A stretch of DNA of 64,000 bases, from positions 1-64,000 of the forward strand of contig JAKLET010000004.1 of the NCBI GenBank assembly GCA_022711595.1. Direction: 5' to 3'. Positions 28,479 through 42,512 of the stretch are shown piece by piece. Both the position numbers and the translations under genes were made by a program. The stretch comes from Deltaproteobacteria bacterium. GTDB lineage: Bacteria > Desulfobacterota > Syntrophorhabdia > Syntrophorhabdales > Syntrophorhabdaceae. The notes beneath the pieces were generated by a model. The model saw only the letters and a list, made by a program, of their open reading frames with translations, was not told the DNA's origin and ran no database searches. Every line of letters begins with the position of its first letter. Positions within the stretch are counted from its first letter, which is position 1.

Positions 28479-29795
28479 TTAGATGTTTCTTCCCCACTGC
28501 AGGGCATTTTTCATGAAGCCGCATTTGATATCCGGCTGGACGCATTCATGGTCGGTTTCAGTGAAGGGGAAGAGCACAAGCAGCGCCTCGCGCACTTTCA
28601 TTTTAATGTGGGGAAGAGCAGGAAGGACCTTTTTCTTATTGATGCCAAGATCGGCGATGATCGTCACCAGGCTGTCGACGGCATCCTCAAGAGGCAGGTT
28701 GACGGGATGAATGGGTGCGTCGGGGATGCGGTCATCCATTTCACCTGAGAAGCCGGCGATGGTGAACTGTTTTGACAAACGCCGGAAGACGGACGGGGTC
28801 ATCCTGAATGCCGGCGTCCAGAAGGAAAAGGGGGGTTCTTCCCAGTGCGGCTGTATGACCTTCGGGAGATTTCCGAGTCTGACGAGATCGGCATAGCAGC
28901 CGAGCTTTATACCTTCAACATCCGCCTGGATGCGCCAGAACGGCAGGTATTGCCGGGGGGACGATTTCGCTGCCTTACCTGATATTGCCGTCGCGAAGCC
29001 GACCCGCTTGAGTCCCTGCGGACGTGACTCCCAGGCGGAATTACACGTCTTGCATAACAGGACGCAGCTGTCTTTTTCCGCTATCGTGTCCCAGCCGCAA
29101 TCGGGACAGAGGGTGGGAAGAAAATCGACCTCCCAGTTTCCGGAAAAGACCTCGTATGGAAGGGATTCATGGACGGCAGGGCCACCGTAAAGAGGTTCAT
29201 TGAGTATGGCATCGAAAAAACGGCCGTTGCGGACAAAAACAGGCGTGTAGATGAGACTCGTTGTGTCAGCCATGAAGGCCTCATGGTAGACCCTGTCTTC
29301 TTTCAATTCCCTCCGGGTTTCGGGGACCTCGTCGTAGTCCCCCTGCGTGCCGCGCCGGATGAAACGTGTTTCGTGTACGGTGACTATTTCGTAGACGACA
29401 TCGTTCTTCGTTTCCACCGATGCCCTGTCAAAGGATATCTTTGGAGCAATGAACCTGGTGTTCTCGGCAGTTTGTACAAACCTGAGCTTCAGCGACTGGG
29501 GTCTGATGCCCAGGGTGGGCGCGAAATGTTTGCTGTCGATTGCGAGAAATGTTTTGTCAACGATACCATCCTCGATCCTGCTTGTTTTGCACAGGAAACG
29601 GATCCCTCGGAAACGCCAGTAAGGGACGAAAAGGACCTCCTCCAGAAGGGGGCCGCAGGGAGCGAAACAATACCGGAGATAGTCCTTCGGTTGTATACAG
29701 AGCTTTGTTTTGCAAAAAGAGCAGATGAGCAGCCGGTCTGTCTCGTCGAGGATGATCGGCCCGTCGCATTGAGGGCATCGATGTTCGATCTGCAT
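28479..29795 (-). CDS. Protein with two zinc ribbons, partner of the SPFH protein
   Basis: A 438-residue soluble protein of unknown function. An N-terminal zinc ribbon (CPQCDGPI...CSFC) and a central one (LCPDCGWDT...LLCKTC near residue 240) are clear. The flanking sequence is rich in aromatic residues and ends in a conserved-looking PALPHIKMKVREALL helix. It starts five bases after the stop of the SPFH gene, so the two are cotranscribed and probably act together. No membrane segment. I do not assign a reaction. Confidence 0.75.
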   Translation of the reverse strand: MQIEHRCPQCDGPIILDETDRLLICSFCKTKLCIQPKDYLRYCFAPCGPLLEEVLFVPYWRFRGIRFLCKTSRIEDGIVDKTFLAIDSKHFAPTLGIRPQSLKLRFVQTAENTRFIAPKISFDRASVETKNDVVYEIVTVHETRFIRRGTQGDYDEVPETRRELKEDRVYHEAFMADTTSLIYTPVFVRNGRFFDAILNEPLYGGPAVHESLPYEVFSGNWEVDFLPTLCPDCGWDTIAEKDSCVLLCKTCNSAWESRPQGLKRVGFATAISGKAAKSSPRQYLPFWRIQADVEGIKLGCYADLVRLGNLPKVIQPHWEEPPFSFWTPAFRMTPSVFRRLSKQFTIAGFSGEMDDRIPDAPIHPVNLPLEDAVDSLVTIIADLGINKKKVLPALPHIKMKVREALLVLFPFTETDHECVQPDIKCGFMKNALQWGRNI

Positions 29796-29800
29796 CGTTG

Positions 29801-30913
29801 TCAGATCTTTTCACCACACTGATTGCAATACAGCGAGTTCGCGAGGTTCTCGGACCCGCAGTGCGGACATTTCGCCGGTGAAGGTTTTTCGCTGACAGGT
29901 TTGCCGCATGAAGGGCAGAACCTGGCTTGTGCCGGCAGGTTCTTGGTGCAGTGGGGGCACTGTTGCACAACGAGAAGATGATGGCCGCATGACGGACAAA
30001 AATGTGCGTTCTTGTCGATGATACCCTGGCATTCAGGGCATTTCAACATTTCGGCCGGCTGCGACGCGCCTTTGAGTGTTTCAGCGTACATGGCCGGCAT
30101 CATGAACCCGAGCCCCATGCCCAGCCCGCCTCCTGCTTCTCCCTGATTCTGGGCCGCGCTCTCCATGGCCATGGCAGCCTTCATTTTCAGGAGCTTGTTG
30201 AGGTCATCGAATACGGCGAGCCTGCTCTTGTCGTCGATGGCCTTCTGGACCTCCTGCGGCGGTGTGATGGAATTGATGTAAAGCCCGGAGAGCTGAAGGC
30301 CGAAGCGTGCCAGGTCCTTTTCAAGCGTCTCCGAAAGACCCGCCGAAATGGCATCGTATTTTCCCGGGAGGTTGAAGAGCGTATCGAGGTTGCCCCCGAG
30401 GTAGTCGTTGAAGCGTGACACGATGACCTTCCCGAGGTAGTCCTCGATGTCTTCAACGGTGTATGATCCTTTTGTCCCCACAAGGGTGTTGATGAAGAGC
30501 GAAGGCTGGATGACCCTGATATTGAACATCCCGAAGGCGCGAAGCCTTATCAGGCCGAGGGTCGAGTCCTTGAACGCCACCGGATCACGTGTTCCCCAGG
30601 CAAGATTGGCGAAGGTCTTCGTGTTGATGAAATAGACCTCTGCGCGAAGAGGGCTTGTGAAACCCCATGGCAGGCTCAGGATCTTTGTTATGATAGGTAT
30701 GTTAAGGGTGGAGAGGGTATACCGCCCTGCTCCCACGGCATCATAGGCCTTTCCTTCATAGAAGAAGACCGCCGCTTGGCTCTCACGGACAGTGAGCTGG
30801 GCGCCGTACTTGATGTCGCCGGACCCTTCCGGGGGTATCCTGTGGGCGATCTCCTTGCCCGTGTCGTCAAACCATTCGATAACTTCAAGAAACATACCGT
30901 TGGACATCCCCAT
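29801..30913 (-). CDS. SPFH/Band 7 protein with C-terminal zinc ribbons (COG4260/YdjI type)
   Basis: A 370-residue protein. Residues about 25-240 form an SPFH domain (AAVFFYEGKAYDAVGAGRYTL at its front, then LIRLRAFGMFNIRV). A Gly/Met-rich linker (GEAGGGLGMGLGFMMPAMYA) follows, then three zinc ribbons: CPECQ...CPSC, CPHCTK...CPSC and CPHCGS...CNQC. Proteins of this type (sometimes labelled 'virion core protein') associate with membrane-stress systems in Bacillus. No transmembrane helix at the N-terminus, so membrane association would be peripheral. Confidence 0.87.
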   Translation of the reverse strand: MGMSNGMFLEVIEWFDDTGKEIAHRIPPEGSGDIKYGAQLTVRESQAAVFFYEGKAYDAVGAGRYTLSTLNIPIITKILSLPWGFTSPLRAEVYFINTKTFANLAWGTRDPVAFKDSTLGLIRLRAFGMFNIRVIQPSLFINTLVGTKGSYTVEDIEDYLGKVIVSRFNDYLGGNLDTLFNLPGKYDAISAGLSETLEKDLARFGLQLSGLYINSITPPQEVQKAIDDKSRLAVFDDLNKLLKMKAAMAMESAAQNQGEAGGGLGMGLGFMMPAMYAETLKGASQPAEMLKCPECQGIIDKNAHFCPSCGHHLLVVQQCPHCTKNLPAQARFCPSCGKPVSEKPSPAKCPHCGSENLANSLYCNQCGEKI

Positions 30914-30996: not shown

Positions 30997-31094
30997 GGTT
31001 TCTTCGGTTTTTATAGTTTTTCCAGTTTCTTTGGTTAATAAAGCTGAATTTGCTGCAATAATGGGAGAAACCAGACAAACCAAATAAACTTTTT
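30997..31094. repeat. Inverted arms of 9-mer words next to the pstB stop
   Basis: The left arm GGTTTCTTC GGTTTTTAT AGTTTTTCC AGTTTCTTT GGTTAATAA is a perfect run of five nonamers (30997-31041). The right arm AAACCAGAC AAACCAAAT AAACTTTTT (about 31068-31094) reaches the stop codon of the minus-strand pstB. Confidence 0.88.
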
Positions 31095-31846
31095 TATCCA
31101 TACCTTCCCGTGATGTACCCTTCAGTCCTCTCATCTCCGGGTGAGGTGAATATCTGGGAGGTGTCGCCGAATTCGACGAGGTCTCCGAGGAGCATGAATC
31201 CGGTATAATCGGAAACCCGGGCGGCCTGCTGCATGTTATGGGTAACTATGAGGATGGTGTAGCGTTCCTTAAGCTCTATCATAAGTTCCTCGATCCTCAT
31301 GGTGGCGATGGGGTCGAGGGCGGAGCATGGTTCGTCAAGGAGGATGATCTCCGGTTCGACCGTGAGCAGCCGGGCCACACAGAGCCGCTGCTTCATCTCT
31401 TCCGAAAGGTCGAGGGCGGGCATGTGGAACTTGTCTTTGAGCTCGTCGAAAAGGCCGACGGCGTGGAGACATTTCTCCACCTTTTCTTTCATGGTGCGCC
31501 TGTTGCTCATGCCATGGACCTTCAGGCCGTAGATCATGTTCTCATACACGGTAAAAGGGAAGGGGTTCGGTCTCTGGAAGACCATACCAACCTTTTTCCT
31601 CAGGTTGATGATGTCTATCTCGTCGAGCTTTTCGTTGTGGACATAGATGCCCCCTTCAATACGGATGTCCTCAATGAGGTCGTTCATGCGGTTGAAGCAG
31701 CGAAGGAGAGTCGATTTGCCGCAGCCGGAAGGGCCGATGAGCGCTGTTATGGCATTTGAATGAACATGGAAATCGATGTTTTTCAGCGCGTGGAAATTAC
31801 CGTAATAGAGATTGAGATCTTTGGTTTCAAGAGCGAACTCGTTCAT
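31094..31846 (-). CDS. pstB: PstB-type ATPase with a degenerate ABC signature motif
   Basis: A 250-residue ATP-binding subunit for a phosphate importer. Walker A GPSGCGKST (38-46), the Q-loop VFQRP with Q91, Walker B ILLDEP with D171/E172 and the switch histidine in IVTHNM (H203) are all normal. The signature, LSGGQ in nearly every PstB, reads LSEEM at 147-151 followed by KQR; I checked this on the nucleotide sequence. It therefore looks able to bind and hydrolyse ATP at its own Walker site but unable to provide a normal signature to a partner. Its start overlaps the stop of the next paralogue (TAATG). Confidence 0.93.
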   Translation of the reverse strand: MNEFALETKDLNLYYGNFHALKNIDFHVHSNAITALIGPSGCGKSTLLRCFNRMNDLIEDIRIEGGIYVHNEKLDEIDIINLRKKVGMVFQRPNPFPFTVYENMIYGLKVHGMSNRRTMKEKVEKCLHAVGLFDELKDKFHMPALDLSEEMKQRLCVARLLTVEPEIILLDEPCSALDPIATMRIEELMIELKERYTILIVTHNMQQAARVSDYTGFMLLGDLVEFGDTSQIFTSPGDERTEGYITGRYG

Positions 31847-32601
31847 TATCCAAACTTTCCCTGAATGTAGTCTTCTGTTCTCTTCTCGACGGGGGCGGTG
31901 AAGACCTTGTCCGTTGTGTTGTATTCAATGAGCGTTCCCAGGTAGAAAAAGGCCGAGAAATCACTGATCCTGGCGATCTGTTTTGTATTGTTCGATACGA
32001 GGATGATCGTGTAGTCCGATTTCAGTTCGCTCAGGGCATCCTCGATCTTTGCCGTGGAGATCGGGTCAAGCCCCGAGCATGGTTCGTCGAGGAGTATGAT
32101 CTCCGGTTTGAGTGCGAGCGTCCGGGCAAGGCAGAGCCTTTGCTGTTGTCCGCCCGACAGTTTAAGCGCCGATGTGTTGAGACGGTCCTTGACCTCGTCC
32201 CAGAGGAAGGCCTTTTTCAGGCTGTCCTCGACAATGTGGTGAAGGCTGGTCCGGTCCGATATCCCTTTGAGCCTTGGCCCATAGGCGATGTTCTCGAATA
32301 TTGAGCGGGGCAGCGGGATGGGCACTGCAAAGACGGTGCCGACACGCCTGCGAAGCTCAATGGGGTTGGAGGACCCGTCAAGTATGCTCTTTCCGTCTAT
32401 CAATACGTCGCCTTCGATCCTTACATTGTTCTCGAAATCTATCATGCGGTTGATGATGGATATGAGGCTCGATTTACCGCTCCCGGAGGGACCCATGAAA
32501 CCGGTTATGGTGTTCTTGTAGACATCGATGGTCACGTCTTTCAGGACATGCGTGTCGCCGAATGACAGGTTTAAATTGCTTGCGGTTATCTTTGTTTCCA
32601 T
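31846..32601 (-). CDS. pstB: PstB-type ATPase with degenerate Q-loop and H-loop
   Basis: A 251-residue paralogue of its neighbour. Walker A GPSGSGKSS (37-45), Walker B ILLDEP (D172/E173) and a perfect signature LSGGQQQR (148-155) are present. The Q-loop glutamine is Ala (VFAVPIP, A92) and the switch histidine is Asn (LVSNNTK, N204), both confirmed in the nucleotides. So its own ATP site looks impaired while its signature is intact, the reverse of the partner encoded directly downstream. The two would complement each other as a heterodimer. Confidence 0.93.
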   Translation of the reverse strand: METKITASNLNLSFGDTHVLKDVTIDVYKNTITGFMGPSGSGKSSLISIINRMIDFENNVRIEGDVLIDGKSILDGSSNPIELRRRVGTVFAVPIPLPRSIFENIAYGPRLKGISDRTSLHHIVEDSLKKAFLWDEVKDRLNTSALKLSGGQQQRLCLARTLALKPEIILLDEPCSGLDPISTAKIEDALSELKSDYTIILVSNNTKQIARISDFSAFFYLGTLIEYNTTDKVFTAPVEKRTEDYIQGKFG

Positions 32602-32607
32602 AACTCC

Positions 32608-33444
32608 CTATGAATACCTGGCGATGGCCTTGTTCATGAGGTAATAAGCCACGACGTTTATGAGCAGGATGCTCAGGACAAGCACCAGCGCCGTACCGTA
32701 CGCCTTTTCCATGGAAATGCCTTCCCGGGCAAGGATATAGAAATGGACCGCCATGGTCCTGCCCGAATCCATGAGCGAAAGGGGGAGCCTCAGCGAGCTT
32801 CCCATGGTGAATATGACCGCCGCCGTTTCCCCCACTGCCCTGCCGATGCTGAGCATGATCCCCGTAAGGATGCCGGGCATCGCGGCAGGGAGGACCACCT
32901 TTTTTATTGTCTCCCATTTACTGGCGCTAAGTGAATAGCTGACGATCCTGAGCTGGCGGGGTACCGCCCTGATCGCCTCCTCGCTGGTCCTTATGATGGT
33001 GGGGAGGATCATGATGGTCAATGTGAGGACCCCGGCAAGAAGAGACCAGCCCATCTTGAGCTTGATGACGAAAAAGATGAAGCCGAAGAGGCCGTACAGA
33101 ATGGAAGGGATGCCGGCAAGCGATTCGACGCCGAAGCGGATGAGCTTGGTGAAAGCCGATTCCCTGGTGTATTCCGTTAAAAAGATGGCCGTGCCTACAC
33201 CAAGCGGTGTGGCAAGCAGTATCGAAAGGAGGGCAAGCTGTATCGTGCCGACGATGGAGGGGAATATGCCCCCGTGTCTGCCCATGTCCTCGGGAAACGA
33301 AAAGATAAAGGCGAAATCGATATAAGGAAAGCCCTTGACACATATTATCGCCACGATGACGACAAGGATGCTCACGGTGAAGAGTGCCTGCGCGCTCAAG
33401 CCCACCCTGACAGCCTGGTTGATTATCCTGGGGTTTACTCTCAT
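32608..33444 (-). CDS. pstA: Phosphate ABC transporter permease PstA (second system)
   Basis: A 278-residue inner-membrane permease with six hydrophobic segments and the cytoplasmic EAA-type loop (EEAIRAVPRQLRIVSYSLSA, near residue 165) that contacts the ATPase. GIPSILYGLFGFIFFV is a PstA/PstC hallmark. It overlaps pstC by four bases and precedes the two pstB genes. Confidence 0.9.
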   Translation of the reverse strand: MRVNPRIINQAVRVGLSAQALFTVSILVVIVAIICVKGFPYIDFAFIFSFPEDMGRHGGIFPSIVGTIQLALLSILLATPLGVGTAIFLTEYTRESAFTKLIRFGVESLAGIPSILYGLFGFIFFVIKLKMGWSLLAGVLTLTIMILPTIIRTSEEAIRAVPRQLRIVSYSLSASKWETIKKVVLPAAMPGILTGIMLSIGRAVGETAAVIFTMGSSLRLPLSLMDSGRTMAVHFYILAREGISMEKAYGTALVLVLSILLINVVAYYLMNKAIARYS

Positions 33445-34313
33445 TTGGCCGGTTTCCTCTTGATGCCGAAGTTTGCAAGGTAATTGAGGGCCATGATGAT
33501 GACCATGAGAACTATTCCTGTCGAGAAAAGGCCCAGCCTGTGGTCTCCGGTCGCATAGGCAAGCTCGAGGGCGATGTTGCCCGTCAGGGTTCTGAGCGGA
33601 TCAAGAATGCTCGTGGGTATCTTCAGCGCGTTGCCGGCGATCATGATGACGGCCATCGTTTCTCCGATAGCCCTTCCCATACCGAGGATGAAACTTGCCA
33701 GTATGCCTGATTTCGCAGAAGGGAGTATGACCTTGTAGATCGTCTGCCATTTTGTGGCGCCCATGGCCGCGGATGCTTCACGGTATGTCTTGGGAACGGT
33801 TGTGATCGCGTCGAAGGAAATGCTGATTATCGTGGGAAGGATCATGACCCCCAGTATGAGCGATGTGGATATGAGGGAAAAGCCCGATCCTCCGAGATAG
33901 TTCCTGACAAGGGGGACGATGTAAATGACCCCGAGAAAACCGTAGACGACGGAAGGGATGCCGGCAAGGAGCTCCAGTGCGGGCTTGAGAAACATCTTCG
34001 TCTTTTTGCCCGAGTACTCGGAGAGGTAGATGGCACAGGAAAGGCCCAGGGGAGCTCCTATGACGAGAGCCCCGAAGGTGACGAGGAAGGAAGAGACGAT
34101 CATGGGGAATATGCCGAAATAGCCCTTTGTAGGTGCCCATTTGAATCCGAAGATGATCTTTTTCAACCCCACCTTGAGAAAAAGCGGCAGTCCTTCTGCA
34201 AGGATGAAAACGAATATGAGGAAGAGGAAAAGCAACGACGAAAGCGCGAAGGTGATGAGCACCCACTTTACAAACCTTTCCTTGAGCATCGTCCTGTCAG
34301 TCATAGAAGCCAA
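33441..34313 (-). CDS. pstC: Phosphate ABC transporter permease PstC (second system)
   Basis: A 290-residue permease. N-terminal cytoplasmic segment, then six membrane spans; LLAGIPSVVYGFLGVIYIVP and the ATPase-contact loop TTVPKTYREASAAMGATKWQ are typical. Its start lies within the 3' end of the pstS-like gene (17-base overlap). Confidence 0.9.
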   Translation of the reverse strand: MASMTDRTMLKERFVKWVLITFALSSLLFLFLIFVFILAEGLPLFLKVGLKKIIFGFKWAPTKGYFGIFPMIVSSFLVTFGALVIGAPLGLSCAIYLSEYSGKKTKMFLKPALELLAGIPSVVYGFLGVIYIVPLVRNYLGGSGFSLISTSLILGVMILPTIISISFDAITTVPKTYREASAAMGATKWQTIYKVILPSAKSGILASFILGMGRAIGETMAVIMIAGNALKIPTSILDPLRTLTGNIALELAYATGDHRLGLFSTGIVLMVIIMALNYLANFGIKRKPAK

Positions 34314-35109
34314 CCAGCCCTTCGTTCCTCAGAATGTTCTGTCCCTCTTTCGATAACACGTAATCGACAAACTGTTTCGCCTTGTTGTCCAGTTCCCCGT
34401 TCGTCACGTAGAGAAAGGGTCTCACGATCTTGTAGCGTCCCGACTTGATGGTCCTGATGGACGGGCTCACGTTGTCTATGGAAACGGGCCTGACCTTTTT
34501 ATCGACAAGGCCCATCGAAACGTAACCGATAGCATAGGGGTCTGTTGCGACCACTTCCTTGACGGAGCCGTTGGAATCCTGGACCATGGTGCCGTCGTCT
34601 ATCTCTTTACCTTTCATGATAAGGTCTTCGAAGGCGCTGCGGGTGCCCGAACCCTCTTCACGCGACACGGCGTCGATCTTTCTGTTGATCCATCCGAGAT
34701 CGCGCCAGTTGGTGATCTGGCCGCTGAAGATCTGCCGTATCTGTGCCAGATTAAGCATCCCGATAGGGTTGTCGGGGTGGACGATGACCACGATACCATC
34801 ATGGCAGATGGTGATCGTGTTGAGCATTTTTTCATTCTCTTTCAGTTCACGCGAAGACATGCCGATATCGACGGTATTATTGATGGTCGCCTGGATGCCG
34901 GCAGTTGAACCGCCTCCCTGGACATCGATGACGAAGTTCTTGTGGTCAACCATGAAATGCTCCGCAAGTTTTTCCGTGAACGGCATGACGGAGGTGGAGC
35001 CGGCAATGGTGATCGTGTGCTTTTCCCTTGACCTGTCGTGGGTTTTGCCGGAACAGGAAGCCAGCAGCAGAACGATCAGAAGCGGTATGGCCCATTTCCT
35101 CAGGAACAT
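34297..35109 (-). CDS. pstS: Phosphate-binding lipoprotein, PstS-like (TIGR02136 type)
   Basis: A 270-residue binding protein. The signal ends in LLLASC, a lipobox, so it is probably anchored to the inner membrane by its Cys. The ligand-binding signatures AGSTSVMPFTEKLAEHF, VQGGGSTAGIQ and SREEGSGTRSAFEDL are those of the short PstS group. It differs clearly from the soluble 352-residue PstS encoded upstream. Confidence 0.9.
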   Translation of the reverse strand: MFLRKWAIPLLIVLLLASCSGKTHDRSREKHTITIAGSTSVMPFTEKLAEHFMVDHKNFVIDVQGGGSTAGIQATINNTVDIGMSSRELKENEKMLNTITICHDGIVVIVHPDNPIGMLNLAQIRQIFSGQITNWRDLGWINRKIDAVSREEGSGTRSAFEDLIMKGKEIDDGTMVQDSNGSVKEVVATDPYAIGYVSMGLVDKKVRPVSIDNVSPSIRTIKSGRYKIVRPFLYVTNGELDNKAKQFVDYVLSKEGQNILRNEGLVGFYD

Positions 35110-35113
35110 GCTG

Positions 35114-35794
35114 TTATTCCTCTGGTTCCTTTGAATGCCGTATTATCTTTCCCTCCACAAGGAAGATGACCAGTTCCGCGATGTTAACGGCGTGATCGGC
35201 CATTCTCTCGAGATACTTGGATATGAACAGCACACGTGTTGCCCGGGAGATCGTGCGCATGTCCTGCATCATGTATGTAAGCAGTTCCCTGAAGATCTGG
35301 TCGAGAAACTGATCGACCTTCTTGTCGTCCCGTGTGACCTTTCTCGCCAGCGCGACATCCTCCTTGACGAAGGCGTCGAGACTTTCTTTGAGCATGAATT
35401 GAACTGTCTCCGCCATCATCGGCAGGTCGATGTAAGGTTTGAGCTGCGGTTCCTGGTTGAGTTCCTGGACCCGCTCACAGATGTTTACGGCCATGTCGCC
35501 GATGCGTTCAAGGTCGTAGTTGATCTTTATGGCTGTTGTAATGAAGCGCAGATCGCGCGCCGCCGGCTGGCGCAGGGCGAGCAGTTTCAGGCAGAACTCG
35601 TCGATCTCGACCTCGATGGAATTGATGGCAGGGTCGTCTTCGATCACCTTCGCGGCAAGTTCTGAGTTGCGTTCGAGGAGTGCCTTGATAGCGTTGTTAA
35701 TAGATTTTTCAACCAGTCCGCCTTCGTGGAGGAGCTTTTCCTTGAGCTCCTTCAATTCGAGGTCAAAAGTCTTGTATATGTGTCCTTCAAGCAT
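35114..35794 (-). CDS. phoU: Phosphate signalling complex regulator PhoU
   Basis: A 226-residue, all-helical protein made of two three-helix bundles with metal-binding E/D-rich motifs (IEVEIDEFCLKLLAL, DLERIGDMAVNICE, YLERMADHAVNIAE). It links Pst transport state to PhoR. Its position between two complete pst sets means it could serve both. Confidence 0.93.
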   Translation of the reverse strand: MLEGHIYKTFDLELKELKEKLLHEGGLVEKSINNAIKALLERNSELAAKVIEDDPAINSIEVEIDEFCLKLLALRQPAARDLRFITTAIKINYDLERIGDMAVNICERVQELNQEPQLKPYIDLPMMAETVQFMLKESLDAFVKEDVALARKVTRDDKKVDQFLDQIFRELLTYMMQDMRTISRATRVLFISKYLERMADHAVNIAELVIFLVEGKIIRHSKEPEE

Positions 35795-35890: not shown

Positions 35891-36649
35891 CTAGCCGAAT
35901 TTTCCGGTCAGGTATTCTTCCGTGCGTTTGTCTTTCGGTACGGTGAACATCTTTTCTGTCGGTCCGAACTCTATGAGTTCCCCGAGATAGATAAAAGCGG
36001 TGAAATCGGAGACCCGTGCGGCCTGCGCTATGTTGTGAGTGACAAGGAGCATGGTGACGTTTTTTTTCAGCTCCACGAAGAGCTCTTCGATCTGGGATGT
36101 CGATTTGGGGTCAAGGGCTGATGTGGGTTCGTCGAGCAGCAGTATCTCCGGATCCATGGCAAGCGCCCTGGCGATGCAGAGCCTTTGCTGCTGGCCTCCC
36201 GAGAGGAACGTTCCCTTGCGGTGTAGCGTGTCTTTCACCTCTTCCCAGAGGGCCGCTTTTTTCAGTGACTGTTCAACGATATTGTCCAGTTCGCCTCGCG
36301 GGATGCGTATGCCGTTGAGCTTGTACCCGGCGATGACGTTCTCATAAATGCTCATGGTGGGGAAGGGATTGGGTTTTTGGAAGACCATGCCCACCTTCCT
36401 TCTGAGTACGATGGGCTGCATGGTGTAGATGTCCTCGTTGACCAGGGTCATTTTCCCGGAGATGGCGGTCCCTGGAATGAGCTCGTGCATCCTGTTGACG
36501 CATCGAATGAGCGTTGTCTTGCCGCAGCCCGATGGCCCCATGAGGGCGGCGACGACATTTTTGGATACGGATAGGTTTACTTCCTTTAATATCTTGTTGT
36601 CTCCGAAAAAGGCACAAAAATTCTCAACTTTTAGAACTGTATTTTCCAT
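35891..36649 (-). CDS. pstB: Phosphate ABC transporter ATPase PstB (first system)
   Basis: A 252-residue canonical PstB. Walker A GPSGCGKTT, Q-loop VFQKPNPFP, signature LSGGQQQR, Walker B LLLDEPTSALD and switch histidine LVTHN are all intact, so a homodimer with two good sites is expected. It serves as the internal control for the two altered paralogues of the second system. Its start overlaps the end of pstA by 19 bases. Confidence 0.94.
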   Translation of the reverse strand: MENTVLKVENFCAFFGDNKILKEVNLSVSKNVVAALMGPSGCGKTTLIRCVNRMHELIPGTAISGKMTLVNEDIYTMQPIVLRRKVGMVFQKPNPFPTMSIYENVIAGYKLNGIRIPRGELDNIVEQSLKKAALWEEVKDTLHRKGTFLSGGQQQRLCIARALAMDPEILLLDEPTSALDPKSTSQIEELFVELKKNVTMLLVTHNIAQAARVSDFTAFIYLGELIEFGPTEKMFTVPKDKRTEEYLTGKFG

Positions 36650-37476
36650 TTAACGGAAATCCCCCTTGCGAAAAGGTTCAGGGCCAATGTGAGGACAACG
36701 AGGATGAACGATGCTCCCCAGGCGAAGGAATGCCACTCCGGGTAAGGGCTCATGGCGTAGTAGAATATCCTGTAGGGCAGTGAATCGATGGGTTTGAGGA
36801 TGTTCATGTTCATGAACTGGTTGCCGAATGCCGTAAAAAGGAGCGGCGCCGTTTCCCCCGTGATCCTGGCTACGCTCAGGAGGATACCGGTGAGGATCCC
36901 GCTTATCCCCGAGGGGAGTATGACCTTCAGGATCGTTCGATGGTACGGTACGCCAAGGGCGAGCGAAGCCTCCTTCAGGTGATAAGGTATGAGCTTCAGC
37001 GTTTCTTCAGTCGTCTTGATGATTACGGGAAGCATCATGATGGAGAGTGCGATGCCGCCGGAGAGAGCGGAGAAGGTCTTCAGGGGGGCGACAACCCAGA
37101 GATAGGCAATGATGCCGATGACAATGGAGGGTGTCCCCTGCAGAACGATGACACAGAGACGGATCGTGTTGCTCAGCTTGCCTTTTTTGTTTTCCGACAG
37201 ATAAATGCCTGCCGCGATGCCGCAGGGGATGGACATTATGCAGGAGAGGATAATGAGCATGACGGTCCCGATTATGGCGTTGAATACGCCGCCTCCGGAT
37301 TCACCGATAGGCCTCGGGAGGCTGAAGAGGAAATCCCAGTTGATCACCATGATCCCGTTCTTTGTTATGTAGTAAAGGATAAGGTAAAGAGGCAAAAGGG
37401 ATATGAACGCGAAGAGACAGACCGCGCATTTGAAGATCATGTCTTTAATGAGGCGCGCACCCGCATGGTCTTTCAT
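36631..37476 (-). CDS. pstA: Phosphate ABC transporter permease PstA (first system)
   Basis: A 281-residue membrane permease with six spans and the contact loop TTEETLKLIPYHLKEASLAL. VLQGTPSIVIGIIAYLWVV carries a Pst permease motif. Shares its start base with the pstC stop and overlaps pstB at the end. Confidence 0.92.
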   Translation of the reverse strand: MKDHAGARLIKDMIFKCAVCLFAFISLLPLYLILYYITKNGIMVINWDFLFSLPRPIGESGGGVFNAIIGTVMLIILSCIMSIPCGIAAGIYLSENKKGKLSNTIRLCVIVLQGTPSIVIGIIAYLWVVAPLKTFSALSGGIALSIMMLPVIIKTTEETLKLIPYHLKEASLALGVPYHRTILKVILPSGISGILTGILLSVARITGETAPLLFTAFGNQFMNMNILKPIDSLPYRIFYYAMSPYPEWHSFAWGASFILVVLTLALNLFARGISVKWKIQF

Positions 37477-38390
37477 CAGGTAACCTCTTTCGAAGATTCA
37501 ATGCTTACTTTCTGAATGACATAGGTGCCGATAATATTGACGACTGTGGTGACAAAGAAAAGGACAAGGGCGATGTATATGAGAGACGAGGCGGTGATGC
37601 CCGTCGCTTCCGCGAATTCGTTGGCTATGACGCTTGCCATGGTGTTGGCAGGGCTGAAGATGCCCGTGGGCAGGAAGTTGCTGTTTCCTATGAGCATCGT
37701 CACAGCCATGGTCTCGCCGATGGCGCGGCCCAGGGCGAGGAGTATCCCCGCGATGATGCCTGAACGGGCGTAAGGGATGATGATGTTCTTGATGACCTCG
37801 AAACGGGTAGCCCCCAGGGAATAGGCTGCTTCCTTGAGGTCTCCCGGTACCAGTGTGATCACCTCCCTGCCGATGGAGGCGGAAAATGGGATGATCATAA
37901 TGGCGAGAATAAGTGAAGAGGTGAATATCCCGACCCCGTGCGGTGGGGCGCCGATCTGTGTTTCCAGGAGCCTCACCGCGGGCATGAGGAGAAAAAGGCC
38001 CCACAGTCCGTATATGACAGACGGGATGCCGGCCAGCACTTCGACTGCACTGCGAAGGAAGGTGGACACCGCACCTTCTTTGAAATATTCACCAAGGAAG
38101 ATTGAAATGGCTATTGAAAAAGGAATGGATATCAAAAGTGCAAGGAAGGACGTACAAAGCGTGCCGACAAGAAAGGGAAGGGCGCCGAAGGTTTCCGTTG
38201 ACGAATCCCAGGTCTTCCCGATAAAAAAGAACAGACCGAATTCTTTTATCGAGGCCACGGCGGCCGCAAGGAGCGTCGCGAAGACGGCAAAGAGAAGCAC
38301 GACAATGAACCCTCCCGACGCGGTGAGGGCCATGTTGAACCTTTTTTCCGATCGGTTGCCGCCAGATGCCGTTTTTTTCTTTGTTTTCAT
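37476..38390 (-). CDS. pstC: Phosphate ABC transporter permease PstC (first system)
   Basis: A 304-residue permease with a basic cytoplasmic N-terminus and six membrane spans. VLAGIPSVIYGLWGLFLLMP and VITLVPGDLKEAAYSLGATR are the typical motifs. It follows pstS after a 76-base gap that contains a hairpin. Confidence 0.92.
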   Translation of the reverse strand: MKTKKKTASGGNRSEKRFNMALTASGGFIVVLLFAVFATLLAAAVASIKEFGLFFFIGKTWDSSTETFGALPFLVGTLCTSFLALLISIPFSIAISIFLGEYFKEGAVSTFLRSAVEVLAGIPSVIYGLWGLFLLMPAVRLLETQIGAPPHGVGIFTSSLILAIMIIPFSASIGREVITLVPGDLKEAAYSLGATRFEVIKNIIIPYARSGIIAGILLALGRAIGETMAVTMLIGNSNFLPTGIFSPANTMASVIANEFAEATGITASSLIYIALVLFFVTTVVNIIGTYVIQKVSIESSKEVT

Positions 38391-38466: not shown

Positions 38467-39525
38467 CTATTTGAAAAGAGGCGCCCCGTTGTAAGTCATT
38501 GAACGGACGATCTTGTTTGCCTTTGCCGCGGCCTCTTTTGAAAGCGGTGCGTACTGAAGGGGCTCCACGTATTTCTGCCCGTCATTCACAGCCCACAGCA
38601 GCATCTTTGCCAATGCCTCAGCCCTGTCTTTCGATCTGTTGGCGTAATTTTGTTCCTTGTAGAAAATGAGCCAGGTGAAACCGCTGATCGGGTAACCGTC
38701 AGCCGCTTCGGTGTTGGTCAGGGACACGTTGGTGTCATCAGGTATCTTGACGTTGGCCGCCGCGCTGACTGCCTTCAGGGTGGGCTCGATGAATTTACCG
38801 GCCTTGTTTTTGATGCTACCGTAAGACATCTTGTTCTGAATGGCATAGAGCAGTTCAACGTAACCGACTGCGCCGGGCGTCTGTTTTACGTAACCTGCCA
38901 CTCCTGGATTCCCCTTCTGCCCGATGGATCCTGCCGGCCAGTTGACCGATTTGCCGGTTCCCAGTTTGCTTTTCCATTCCCCGCTGACTTTCGTCAAATA
39001 CTCGGTAAAGATATAGGTTGTGCCGCTGCTGTCTGCACGGCGCACCACGGTTATGGGAAGATCGGGAAGTTTTGCATTAGGATTCGCCGAGACTATCCTG
39101 GAATCGTTCCATTTTTTTATGTTGCCGAGGAAGATGTTAGCGATGGCCTCAGGTGTGAGATTCAGCTTAGGGCTGCCGGGAAGGTTGTATGTGACCACAA
39201 CTGCGCCCAGGCATGTGGGGATGTGCAACACCGGCGAGCCGGCGGCCTGAAGTTCTTTGGCTGTCATGAACGCATCGGTGCCGCCGAAGTCCACGGTTTT
39301 TTTCGTGAGCTGGTTGATGCCGCCGCCGGACCCGATGCCCTGGTAATTGATCTTCACCTTGTATTGCTGGTTGTAGGCATCGAACATCTTCGAGTAGAGC
39401 GGTTGAGGGAAAGTTGCGCCCGCCCCGAGCAGCTCCATATCACCGGCGGATGCACAGAAGGCCGCAAGAACGATCGAGATGGAGATGACCGCACACGAGA
39501 TTGCCCTGGCTAGATCACGAAACAT
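38467..39525 (-). CDS. pstS: Periplasmic phosphate-binding protein PstS
   Basis: A 352-residue binding protein with a signal peptide (ISISIVLAAFCASAG) and the phosphate-binding signatures LLGAGATFPQPLYSKMFDAY, GSGGGINQLTKKTVDFGGTD and RRADSSGTTYIFTEYL. ATG at 39525 is chosen because AAGGAGG lies seven bases before it; the next ATG upstream would sit directly on that sequence. It heads the first pst system and has Pho-box-like repeats upstream. Confidence 0.93.
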   Translation of the reverse strand: MFRDLARAISCAVISISIVLAAFCASAGDMELLGAGATFPQPLYSKMFDAYNQQYKVKINYQGIGSGGGINQLTKKTVDFGGTDAFMTAKELQAAGSPVLHIPTCLGAVVVTYNLPGSPKLNLTPEAIANIFLGNIKKWNDSRIVSANPNAKLPDLPITVVRRADSSGTTYIFTEYLTKVSGEWKSKLGTGKSVNWPAGSIGQKGNPGVAGYVKQTPGAVGYVELLYAIQNKMSYGSIKNKAGKFIEPTLKAVSAAANVKIPDDTNVSLTNTEAADGYPISGFTWLIFYKEQNYANRSKDRAEALAKMLLWAVNDGQKYVEPLQYAPLSKEAAAKANKIVRSMTYNGAPLFK

Positions 39526-39586
39526 AAGCATTCCTCCTTGGATTATTTTTCGCAAGCATTTCATGATGCCAGTTTAATCTTTAAAT

Positions 39587-40095: not shown

Positions 40096-41829
40096 TCACA
40101 TGTATGCCGGAAGTGTGATAACGAACTTCGTGCCCTTTCCCGGGGTGCTTTCCACGGCAATCTTTCCGTTGTGAAGGAGGATTATGTGCTTGACGATGGA
40201 CAGGCCCAAACCGGTCCCTCCGAGTTTCTTTGATCTGGATTTGTCGACCACATAGAACCGTTCAAAGATACGGGAGGTGTGTTCCGGGGGGATACCGGGG
40301 CCAGTATCGGATATGGATATGATAACATTCTGTTCGCTGGCGGACATCTCGATGCTGATCCCGCCGTTTTCGGTGTACTTGATGGTGTTGTCGAAAAGGT
40401 TGATAAAGACCTGCTCGAGTTTGAAGGGATCGCCCATGACTGGGGGCAGGCCGGCGGGGCTTTGAATGTCTATCGAAAAACCTTTTGACCTTATCCGGTC
40501 TTCAAAGACTTTGAAGACCCTTTCGATGAGTTCGGGCATTTTCACGGCCTCGGGTTCGAGCATGAAACTCTTTTCCTCGAGTTCCGAAAGGACGAGAAGG
40601 TCGCTGACCACATTGATGAGCCGGTCAGTGTTGCGCTTTATTATCTCAAGGTAGCGCCTGTTCTCATCGGACAGCTCCCCTTCTTCGATGGTATCAATAA
40701 ACCCCTTTATAGAGGTAAGGGGTGTTCTCAGTTCGTGGGAAACGTTGAGCACGAAATCGGTCTTTATCTTTTCGAGCTTCTTGATCTCCGTGATGTCGTG
40801 GAGTACCAGGACGACCTCTTCCTTGAGATTAAGGAATGTGGCGCTGCACAGGAAGATCATGTTGTTCAGTTCTATCTCTTCGACGTGATTTGAACGGTCT
40901 TCCCTGACCCGTTTGATGACTTCATTGATCCCCGGTTCCCTGAGGGTCTCCCAGTAAAACTTCCCTGCTGCGAGGGCCTGTCCGGTGATCTCTTGCAGGC
41001 TTTTGTTGGCAATAAGCACGCGTTCTTCCCTGTCAAGCACGAGCAGGCCTTCCTGGAGTGAGGTGATAATGCTGTTGAGCTCCTCTTTCTGACGGGTCAG
41101 TTCGGCGAAGAGACCCTGCATTTCATCAGTCATTGTGTTGAAGCTTTCGGCCACTTCTTTCAGCTCATCCTGTTCCTTGAGGAGCACCCTGACATTGAAA
41201 TCATGACAGGCAACGCGCTTGATGGCAGCGCTCAATTCCCCGACAGGCCTGTAAAGCGCGCGGGCAAAAAGGAATGCGGCGAACAGGGAGATCGTGAGGA
41301 TAATGGAGGTTATGAGCAATATTTTAGAGTTTAGTTCCCGGGACACGGTCCTGATGTCCTTCAAGAACCTGCTTGCCCGAATGACGCGGACCGTTTTATT
41401 GTCCTTTTGTACAGGAACGGCAATGTAGAGCATTTCCTGGCCCAGGGTCTCGCTGACCCTCAGGTATCTTCCCGTGCCGCCCTCCAGCGCCTGGGCTATC
41501 TCCGTCCTTGTCCTGTGGTTGTCCATTTTGAGAGGATCTTCCTCGGAGTCGGCGATGACCCTGCCGTCGGGCTCCACGATGGTGATGCGTGCGTGGACCT
41601 GTCCCCCCAGTTCTTTGACGAAAACGTTCAGGGAGGTATTTGAACCGGCTGCGGAATACAAAGCTGCCGCTGCGCCGGCAACAGAGGCTATGTCCTTTAG
41701 TTCCCGTGCAGTCCGGTCTGTCAGGTGATTTCTTATTGCATAGGACGAGAACAGGACGATGAGACCTGAGAGCGCGACAGTCAAAAAGAAATAGCCGCCG
41801 AAAATTTTAAGAAAGAGAGACCGTTTCAT
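40096..41829 (-). CDS. phoR: Phosphate sensor histidine kinase PhoR-like
   Basis: A 577-residue membrane kinase. An N-terminal helix (YFFLTVALSGLIVLFSSYAI), an extracytoplasmic sensor of about 130 residues, a second helix (ILLITSIILTISLFAAFLFA), HAMP, PAS, HisKA with phosphorylated H365 in NVSHELRTPLTSIKGF, and an ATPase domain (N, G1 GPGIPPEHTSRIFERF, G2 GGTGLGLSIVKHI) follow in order. The start overlaps the phoB stop by four bases. The large periplasmic sensor is unlike the short loop of E. coli PhoR. Confidence 0.9.
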   Translation of the reverse strand: MKRSLFLKIFGGYFFLTVALSGLIVLFSSYAIRNHLTDRTARELKDIASVAGAAAALYSAAGSNTSLNVFVKELGGQVHARITIVEPDGRVIADSEEDPLKMDNHRTRTEIAQALEGGTGRYLRVSETLGQEMLYIAVPVQKDNKTVRVIRASRFLKDIRTVSRELNSKILLITSIILTISLFAAFLFARALYRPVGELSAAIKRVACHDFNVRVLLKEQDELKEVAESFNTMTDEMQGLFAELTRQKEELNSIITSLQEGLLVLDREERVLIANKSLQEITGQALAAGKFYWETLREPGINEVIKRVREDRSNHVEEIELNNMIFLCSATFLNLKEEVVLVLHDITEIKKLEKIKTDFVLNVSHELRTPLTSIKGFIDTIEEGELSDENRRYLEIIKRNTDRLINVVSDLLVLSELEEKSFMLEPEAVKMPELIERVFKVFEDRIRSKGFSIDIQSPAGLPPVMGDPFKLEQVFINLFDNTIKYTENGGISIEMSASEQNVIISISDTGPGIPPEHTSRIFERFYVVDKSRSKKLGGTGLGLSIVKHIILLHNGKIAVESTPGKGTKFVITLPAYM

Positions 41830-42512
41830 TCCTCTATTTTATACCCCACTCCCCTGACGTTTTTTATAATACCCGAGAATTTGCCCAATTTTTCACGCAG
41901 GTGCCGGATGTGGACATCAACGGTCCTGTCGATGACGAATTTTTCTTCTCCCCAGAGGAAGTCGAGGATCTGGTCCCGCGTTTGAATACGTCCTTTCTTG
42001 GCGGCCAGGAGCTGGAGTATCTTGAACTCGGTAGGGGTCAGGTCGATCTTTTTACCTTCCGCTTCGACCTCGTATTTATCAAGGTCAATGGAAACGAAGT
42101 CGGAGACGGAGATCTTCTTGACCTCTTCCTCCTTTTTTCCGTGTCTTCTCAGTACGGCCCGGACCCTGGCAACGAGCTCACGGGTGGAAAAAGGCTTTGT
42201 CACATAATCGTCTGCCCCGAGCTCAAGCCCGATGACCTTGTCCGTTTCTTCCGTTTTGGCGGTGAGCATGATGATGGGGATCGAGGCAAATCTTTCCTGG
42301 CCCCTTAAGTACTTGCATATTTCAAAACCGTCGACGTCGGGGAGCATGAGGTCCAGTATGATGAGATCGGGAACTTCTTTTGACAGGAAACGGTAGAAAG
42401 GCTCGGCCTCGGTGAATTCCCTGGTATTAAAGTTCGATCTTTTGAGGTGGAGAGATACCAGTTCGAGTATATCCGGTTCATCATCAACGATCGCTACCAG
42501 TTGTTTATTCAT
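41826..42512 (-). CDS. phoB: Phosphate response regulator PhoB-like (OmpR family)
   Basis: A 228-residue regulator: a receiver domain with D10/D11, phosphorylation site D54 (IILDLMLPD) and K104 region (VTKPFSTRELVARV), then an OmpR-type winged helix (LTPTEFKILQLLAAKKGRI, FVIDRTVDVHIRHLREKLG). Assignment to phosphate rests on its location directly ahead of the pst genes. Confidence 0.9.
   Translation of the reverse strand: MNKQLVAIVDDEPDILELVSLHLKRSNFNTREFTEAEPFYRFLSKEVPDLIILDLMLPDVDGFEICKYLRGQERFASIPIIMLTAKTEETDKVIGLELGADDYVTKPFSTRELVARVRAVLRRHGKKEEEVKKISVSDFVSIDLDKYEVEAEGKKIDLTPTEFKILQLLAAKKGRIQTRDQILDFLWGEEKFVIDRTVDVHIRHLREKLGKFSGIIKNVRGVGYKIEE

Follow-up and report, generated by a model that had tools for sequence, protein, structure and literature searches.

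Adjacent PstB paralogues with complementary motif changes suggest an asymmetric ATPase pair in a bacterial phosphate importer

Results and Discussion

Two pst operons in one Pho cluster

The window, i.e. the whole stretch of 64,000 nucleotides that was analyzed, carries one Pho cluster that holds two Pst transporters, one symmetric and one predicted to be asymmetric, with phoB-like and phoR-like genes upstream. In the direction of transcription, the genes are:

41826-42512, minus strand: phoB-like regulator (Pfam domains)
40096-41829, minus strand: phoR-like kinase (Pfam domains)
38467-39564, minus strand: pstS1 of the canonical Pst transporter (named by reading and by co-occurrence in relatives)
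37476-38390, minus strand: pstC1 of the canonical Pst transporter (named likewise)
36631-37476, minus strand: pstA1 of the canonical Pst transporter (named likewise)
35891-36649, minus strand: canonical PstB of this neighboring transporter, used as internal reference (all motifs intact; TIGR00972, 358.5 bits)
35114-35794, minus strand: phoU, first gene of the unit phoU-pstS2-C2-A2-B-A by gene order (TIGR02135, 239.4 bits; cut-off 130.25)
34297-35109, minus strand: pstS2, phosphate-binding protein of the putative asymmetric transporter (TIGR02136, 241.5 bits; cut-off 206.6)
33441-34313, minus strand: pstC2, permease of the same transporter (TIGR02138, 291.9 bits; cut-off 196.45)
32608-33444, minus strand: pstA2, permease of the same transporter (TIGR00974, 270.2 bits; cut-off 193.45)
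31846-32601, minus strand: pstBb, encoding PstB-B (hereafter B; LSGGQ intact, Q-loop Gln and switch His absent; TIGR00972, 333.9 bits)
31094-31846, minus strand: pstBa, encoding PstB-A (hereafter A; Walker motifs, Q-loop Gln and switch His intact, signature LSEEM; TIGR00972, 352.8 bits)

The second operon, phoU-pstS2-pstC2-pstA2-B-A, is complete and is closed by the two ATPase genes. It lies directly downstream of the canonical pstS1-C1-A1-B genes and of the phoB/phoR-like pair (40096-42512), which is likely to regulate the cluster. Membership in the Pst family is indicated by PstS2, PstC2, PstA2, and PhoU, all of which exceed curated NCBIfam cut-offs and are encoded contiguously. For the PstB model TIGR00972 (cut-off 343.2 bits), A scores above and B slightly below the threshold; despite this score, the model is the best family match of B. 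Most of the PstS2 sequence can be aligned with phosphate-binding proteins of solved structure (4gd5 and 4q8r), and phosphate is the presumed substrate of the PstS2-C2-A2 transporter.

Both A and B are real, unbroken ORFs. The original prediction of two adjacent pstB ORFs was right as to their positions; their true strand is the minus strand, with B upstream of A, and a plus-strand reading of the same coordinates is interrupted by stops. Transcription runs from pstA2 into B (start 32601, stop 31846) and then A (start 31846, stop 31094). The stop codon of B and the start codon of A overlap in the sequence TAATG, with one base in common. Downstream of pstBa follow a gene for an SPFH/Band-7 protein with C-terminal double zinc ribbons (29801-30913, minus strand) and then a gene for a 438-aa protein with CxxC-type motifs and no Pfam match (28479-29795, minus strand).

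Motif state of A and B

The motifs of A read GPSGCGKST, MVFQRPNPFP (Q91), LSEEMKQR, DEPCSALD, and VTHNMQQ (H203), and those of B read GPSGSGKSS, TVFAVPIPLP (A92), LSGGQQQR, DEPCSGLD, and VSNNTKQ (N204). Every residue originally reported was thereby confirmed: A keeps both Walker motifs, Q91, and H203 and has LSEEM in place of LSGGQ, while B has a perfect LSGGQQQR together with A92 and N204 at the positions of the Q-loop Gln and the switch His. The third PstB of the window is, as had been noted before, canonical at all motifs. B retains the catalytic Glu of Walker B. The diagnostic positions are:

32326-32328, minus strand: A92 codon of B, Q-loop Gln position (residue comparison)
32146-32160, minus strand: LSGGQ signature of B (neither Gly is replaced in any of the 176 B proteins)
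31990-31992, minus strand: N204 codon of B, switch His position (residue comparison)
31574-31576, minus strand: Q91 codon of A (intact in 176/176 A proteins)
31394-31408, minus strand: LSEEM signature of A (residue comparison)
31238-31240, minus strand: H203 codon of A (intact in 176/176 A proteins)

Within the window, A and B share 44.6% identity, and each is 49-51% identical to the canonical copy. AlphaFold2 models of A (pLDDT 92.8) and B (pLDDT 95.9) both find their best PDB matches in E. coli PstB (9k3s and 9k3x), with TM scores of 0.89-0.92 and 0.91-0.95, respectively.

Complementary pairs recur across bacteria

A degenerate DNA pattern for the switch region of B (NNTKQ) was scanned over 84,980 species and gave at least 116 stretches. 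Reading of 110 B genes among the matches listed gave the same state wherever the motifs were complete. Two of these stretches (L163 and L202), and probably also L138, were chance matches to the pattern with no PstB at the site. Since the scan selects on B, additional searches were run with A proteins as queries in four phyla, namely Desulfobacterota (that of the window), Omnitrophota, Planctomycetota, and Bacteroidota (that of the Melioribacter record), and with the PstB family in Firmicutes, the phylum of a Lachnospiraceae record. These searches added the switch-region variants NNVKQ, NNTQQ, NNVAQ, and NLVQQ.

Over all loci examined, 181 non-redundant adjacent pstB pairs had all motifs readable. 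Complementary changes were found in 176 of them, five were intact in both genes, and none was mixed. In the complementary type, the upstream gene B lacks the Q-loop Gln, has Asn at the switch His, and keeps LSGGQ, and the downstream gene A keeps Gln and His and has Glu, Asp, or Tyr at the second Gly of the signature. The A-protein samples, which were not selected on the B motif, comprised 55 complementary pairs, one intact pair, and no mixed pair. Selection bias from the NNTKQ pattern was discarded as an explanation, because the A-protein and Firmicutes family searches gave the same result. The proposal that loss of the signature and loss of Gln and His occur together in adjacent genes, which had been put forward as a test, is thus borne out by the pair counts. 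Altered copies with no readable partner lay at locus edges or next to a partner that was cut, broken, N-masked, or merged with another frame during ORF extraction.

In the same family and order as the window, every genome with a readable pair has the complementary pair, which also occurs in more distant families of the phylum. Record titles among the matches listed include Deltaproteobacteria/Syntrophorhabdus, Planctomycetota, Omnitrophota, Aminicenantes/Acidobacteria, WOR-1, WOR-3/Stahlbacteria, Verrucomicrobia/Lentisphaerae/Kiritimatiellaeota, Spirochaetes, Hydrogenedentes, and Bacteroidetes/Melioribacter. Complementary pairs therefore span at least about nine or ten phylum-level groups, with phyla taken from record titles. 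Most loci are contigs of metagenome-assembled genomes, and the organisms belong mostly to uncultured lineages known from metagenomes of groundwater, sediment, and other sources (record titles). The gene order pstS-C-A-B-A recurs among the loci, the gap between B and A is 20 bases or less in 141/176 pairs, and phoU lies within or beside the operon at many loci. With the same pattern in neighboring species and in 176/181 pairs, chance can be dismissed as its cause.

Residue conservation

For the residue comparison, 176 B, 176 A, and 95 canonical proteins were used. At the Q-loop Gln position, the B proteins have Ala (159), Ser (12), Asp (3), Thr (1), or Pro (1). The switch position is Asn in 176/176 B proteins and His in 95/95 canonical proteins. 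The second signature Gly, present in 95/95 canonical proteins, is replaced in all A proteins (Glu in 156, Asp in 18, Tyr in 2). Near-invariant canonical positions that changed in A are only A133 and the signature residue G152. In B they are A35, C42, Q91, N94, F96, A133, A178, L190, and H205; beyond Gln and His, the B clade has thus changed at N94 and F96 in the Q-loop region, at the Walker A Cys (C42 to Ser), and at the D-loop Ala (178 to Gly). At the fourth residue of Walker A, all 176 A proteins and all 107 canonical singles have Gly, compared with 63 of about 174 B proteins. A cross-interface compensation between this residue of B and the signature of A is not claimed, as it is confounded by phylogeny. 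The P-loop Lys and the Walker B Asp-Glu are kept in nearly all B proteins.

In ABC ATPases, each ATP site is built from both subunits: one supplies Walker A/B, the Q-loop, and the switch His, and the other supplies the signature. Taken together, A and B hold the catalytic elements of one intact and one altered composite site, divided over two subunits. Since the elements of one site are kept and most of those of the other are altered, the losses, judged by these residues, follow composite ATP sites and not subunits, with Walker B of B as the exception. The claim that an A:B pair would combine one complete and one degenerate site thereby gains the backing of 176 complementary pairs.

Phylogeny and selection

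In the PstB tree, the B proteins form one clade (SH-aLRT 97) and the A proteins form another (94). Both clades persist when the columns of Walker A, Q-loop, signature, Walker B, and switch His are removed (95/80 for B, 94/96 for A), so a grouping driven by these five motifs was rejected; the supports are moderate and the bootstrap is unconverged. Neither clade contains a protein with the full set of motifs; close homologues of that kind had been named in advance as evidence against the pair. The distances of A and B correlate (Mantel r 0.78, 0/500 permutations), as expected for any two genes that are inherited together. Median dN/dS values within the genus were 0.052 for A, 0.038 for B, 0.025 for pstA2, and 0.031 for pstC2, which are rough figures with dS near saturation.

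These data bear on the alternative that one copy is a decaying duplicate whose complementarity is coincidental. Such a reading could draw on the score of B below the PstB model cut-off and on one B protein (locus L377) that has lost further Walker B and Q-loop residues. It is extremely improbable given Asn at the switch in 176/176 B proteins, the replacement of the second signature Gly by Glu, Asp, or Tyr in all 176 A proteins, the cross-phylum clade that each paralogue forms, and the genomes in which the pair is the sole PstB (see below). The dN/dS values of about 0.04-0.05 are near those of pstA2 and pstC2 and, though rough, exclude decay; together with the 176/176 conservation they refute this reading, and neither copy is the decaying one that had been considered beforehand. 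A matched change in 176 pairs from about nine phyla thus speaks for a conserved machine and not for a decaying gene. A and B are under purifying selection, complementary, and strictly co-occurring.

A sister group of A was found in one Desulfobacterota family (f10; loci L265-L270 and L281). Its proteins come nearest to an unaltered motif set; they lie outside the A clade, keep Gln and His, and have the signature LTLGQQQR or LALGQQQR. Some of the genes follow a canonical PstB gene, and others stand alone immediately ahead of pstS, in stretches that lack pstC and pstA. As a possible intermediate, this group may illustrate the first step of the signature change; alternatively, it may represent an orphan PstB-PstS pair with a use of its own.

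Genomes in which the pair is the sole PstB

The pair was counted as the sole PstB when exactly two PstB-like matches were obtained at an E-value of 1e-65 or better and these were A and B. At least 13 genomes fell into this class, two of them WOR-3 records titled chromosomes (CP070802.1 and CP070686.1). In these two records, no match to Pit (PF01384) or to the Na/Pi cotransporter family (PF02690) was found, which leaves the putative asymmetric Pst system as the only recognized phosphate importer there. A canonical PstB is therefore not needed, and a purely accessory role of the pair is unlikely. Mixed dimers with a canonical PstB as a necessary arrangement are ruled out by the genomes with no third PstB.

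The same genomes weigh against the proposal that B acts as a pseudo-ATPase with a regulatory task, reporting phosphate status to PhoU/PhoR, and that transport is powered by homodimers of A or by dimers that combine A or B with the canonical PstB of the other operon. The presence of phoU in or beside the operon at many loci, of phoB/phoR upstream, and of an adjoining canonical PstB in this genome would fit such a role. We nevertheless consider it very unlikely, as A:A would have Glu or Asp at the second Gly of both its signatures, the genomes above contain A and B but no third PstB, and the LSGGQ conserved in B can serve a purpose only across a dimer interface.

Proposed mechanism

The reading of A and B as an asymmetric pair is, at the level of sequence, strongly supported. 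A homodimer of A would have two bad signatures and a homodimer of B two sites lacking Gln and His; both would be poor ATPases. As neither would contain any complete site, an obligate heterodimer with one catalytic site is favored. In A:B, the canonical site would combine Walker A/B, the Q-loop Gln, and the switch His of A with LSGGQ of B. The degenerate site would combine Walker A/B of B, with Ala or Ser for Gln and Asn for His, with the Glu- or Asp-substituted signature of A, and probably holds ATP with no productive turnover, as a probable ATP clamp. Only A:B would then be functional, with about one ATP hydrolyzed per cycle. Heterodimer assembly, ATP occupancy, and ATP stoichiometry are what we infer here. 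It is highly probable that A and B form a heterodimer with functionally asymmetric sites that would serve as the motor of a dedicated phosphate importer, PstS2-C2-A2-(B:A). For a strict one-ATP operation of this importer, we put the chances at about even. The broadest version is a cross-phylum clade of Pst transporters with obligate A:B, one catalytic site, about one ATP per cycle, and a second site long kept as a non-hydrolyzing ATP clamp, which in some lineages would be the only recognized high-affinity phosphate importer; the odds for and against it appear balanced.

The second Gly of LSGGQ corresponds to G551 of CFTR, where Asp cripples ATP-dependent gating. By analogy, this suggests that Glu or Asp at the second signature Gly of A disables the site. 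In MRP1, transport is kept when the H-loop His of the active site is changed to Asn or Gln, and the His of the degenerate site is dispensable (review PMC7756269). A change from His to Asn alone is therefore no proof of inactivity, and the degenerate site, in which P-loop Lys and catalytic Glu are both retained in nearly all B proteins, may still turn over. Accordingly, an A:B heterodimer in which both sites hydrolyze ATP, the substitutions only tuning rates or fixing the orientation of the NBDs on PstC/PstA, has to be weighed. It would agree with the retained Walker B Glu, with the tolerance of MRP1 to the His change, and with the difference between PstC and PstA, given which an ordered NBD pair could matter. 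On the other hand, three catalytic elements of one composite site (Gln and His of B, signature Gly of A) are altered together and the P-loop of B is relaxed too, and we regard hydrolysis at both sites as unlikely. The preferred reading remains the heterodimer with asymmetric sites.

Whether an importer spends one or two ATP hydrolyses per cycle is usually probed with engineered mutants of symmetric pumps. The same genome here offers a predicted asymmetric importer, marked by a clean residue-level signature, beside a symmetric one with which it presumably shares its substrate. If the reading is true, this class of importers needs no second hydrolysis-competent site. A lower ATP cost per phosphate as the selective reason is speculation. 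Annotation is affected too: A and B are both scored as plain PstB, whereas either one by itself is predicted to be a poor ATPase.

Comparison with known systems

PstS2, PstC2, PstA2, and PhoU resemble the E. coli PstSCAB system at scores over family cut-offs, and E. coli PstB is nearest to B by sequence and fold and to A by fold (cryo-EM structures 9k3s and 9k3x). The difference lies in the ATPase, which is encoded by two genes with complementary motif changes and not by a single canonical pstB. In Firmicutes, too, pst loci with adjacent pstB genes are known. Enterococcus faecalis has tandem PstB1/PstB2, which are adjacent and functionally non-equivalent and have all four motifs in both proteins; its authors stated that there were no published studies of tandem pstB paralogues (PMC12096839). 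PstBA and PstBB of Bacillus subtilis were modeled as a mixed pair (PMC11466899). A and B differ from the tandem PstB1/PstB2 of E. faecalis in their altered motifs, and the one Firmicutes pair in our sample is intact in both genes and falls outside the A and B clades.

On the degenerate side of asymmetric exporters, loss of the Walker B catalytic Glu is usual though not obligatory. TAP, CFTR, and TM287/288 distribute one consensus and one degenerate composite site over two subunits (PMC7756269), as predicted for A:B, which differs in being an importer and in its degenerate side, where the Walker B Glu is retained and the Q-loop Gln is missing. The exporter-type loss of this Glu does not characterize the B proteins, nearly all of which have Asp-Glu. 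Of the originally proposed likeness to these exporters, the layout stands and the residue pattern does not (Walker B Glu kept; Q-loop Gln, switch His, and the partner's signature Gly lost).

Importers with one ATP site degenerate by sequence are known in RbsA and NupO (PMC11466899). Their NBDs are fused, they are of type II, and the second Walker A Lys is lost, whereas A and B are encoded by separate Pst genes and keep this Lys. In open-access PMC, a partial library that provides weak evidence on this point, we found no description of a degenerate or split PstB pair or of a PstB heterodimer. The earlier statement that no phosphate importer had been so described thus holds for PstB and has to be given up for importers in general: because RbsA and NupO are already known, the asymmetric Pst system is the first that we could find for PstB only.

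Divergent members

A few loci depart from the common pattern in detail. At locus L377 (Bacteroidota-phylum search), the B gene at 749 is more degraded, with Walker B LDEF, Q-loop VAPLPVGLP, and switch TNLVQQ; in its A partner, Gln and His are intact and the signature reads LLLEQQQK. Loci L132, L161, and L287 form a divergent sub-branch, in which B has Asp at the Q-loop Gln position and the signature LSGGQKQR, and the A partners have THSM and signatures of the form LS(P/M/A)D. Finally, the A genes of L151 and L113 break off or shift frame after the signature, which could be due to assembly errors or to real lesions.
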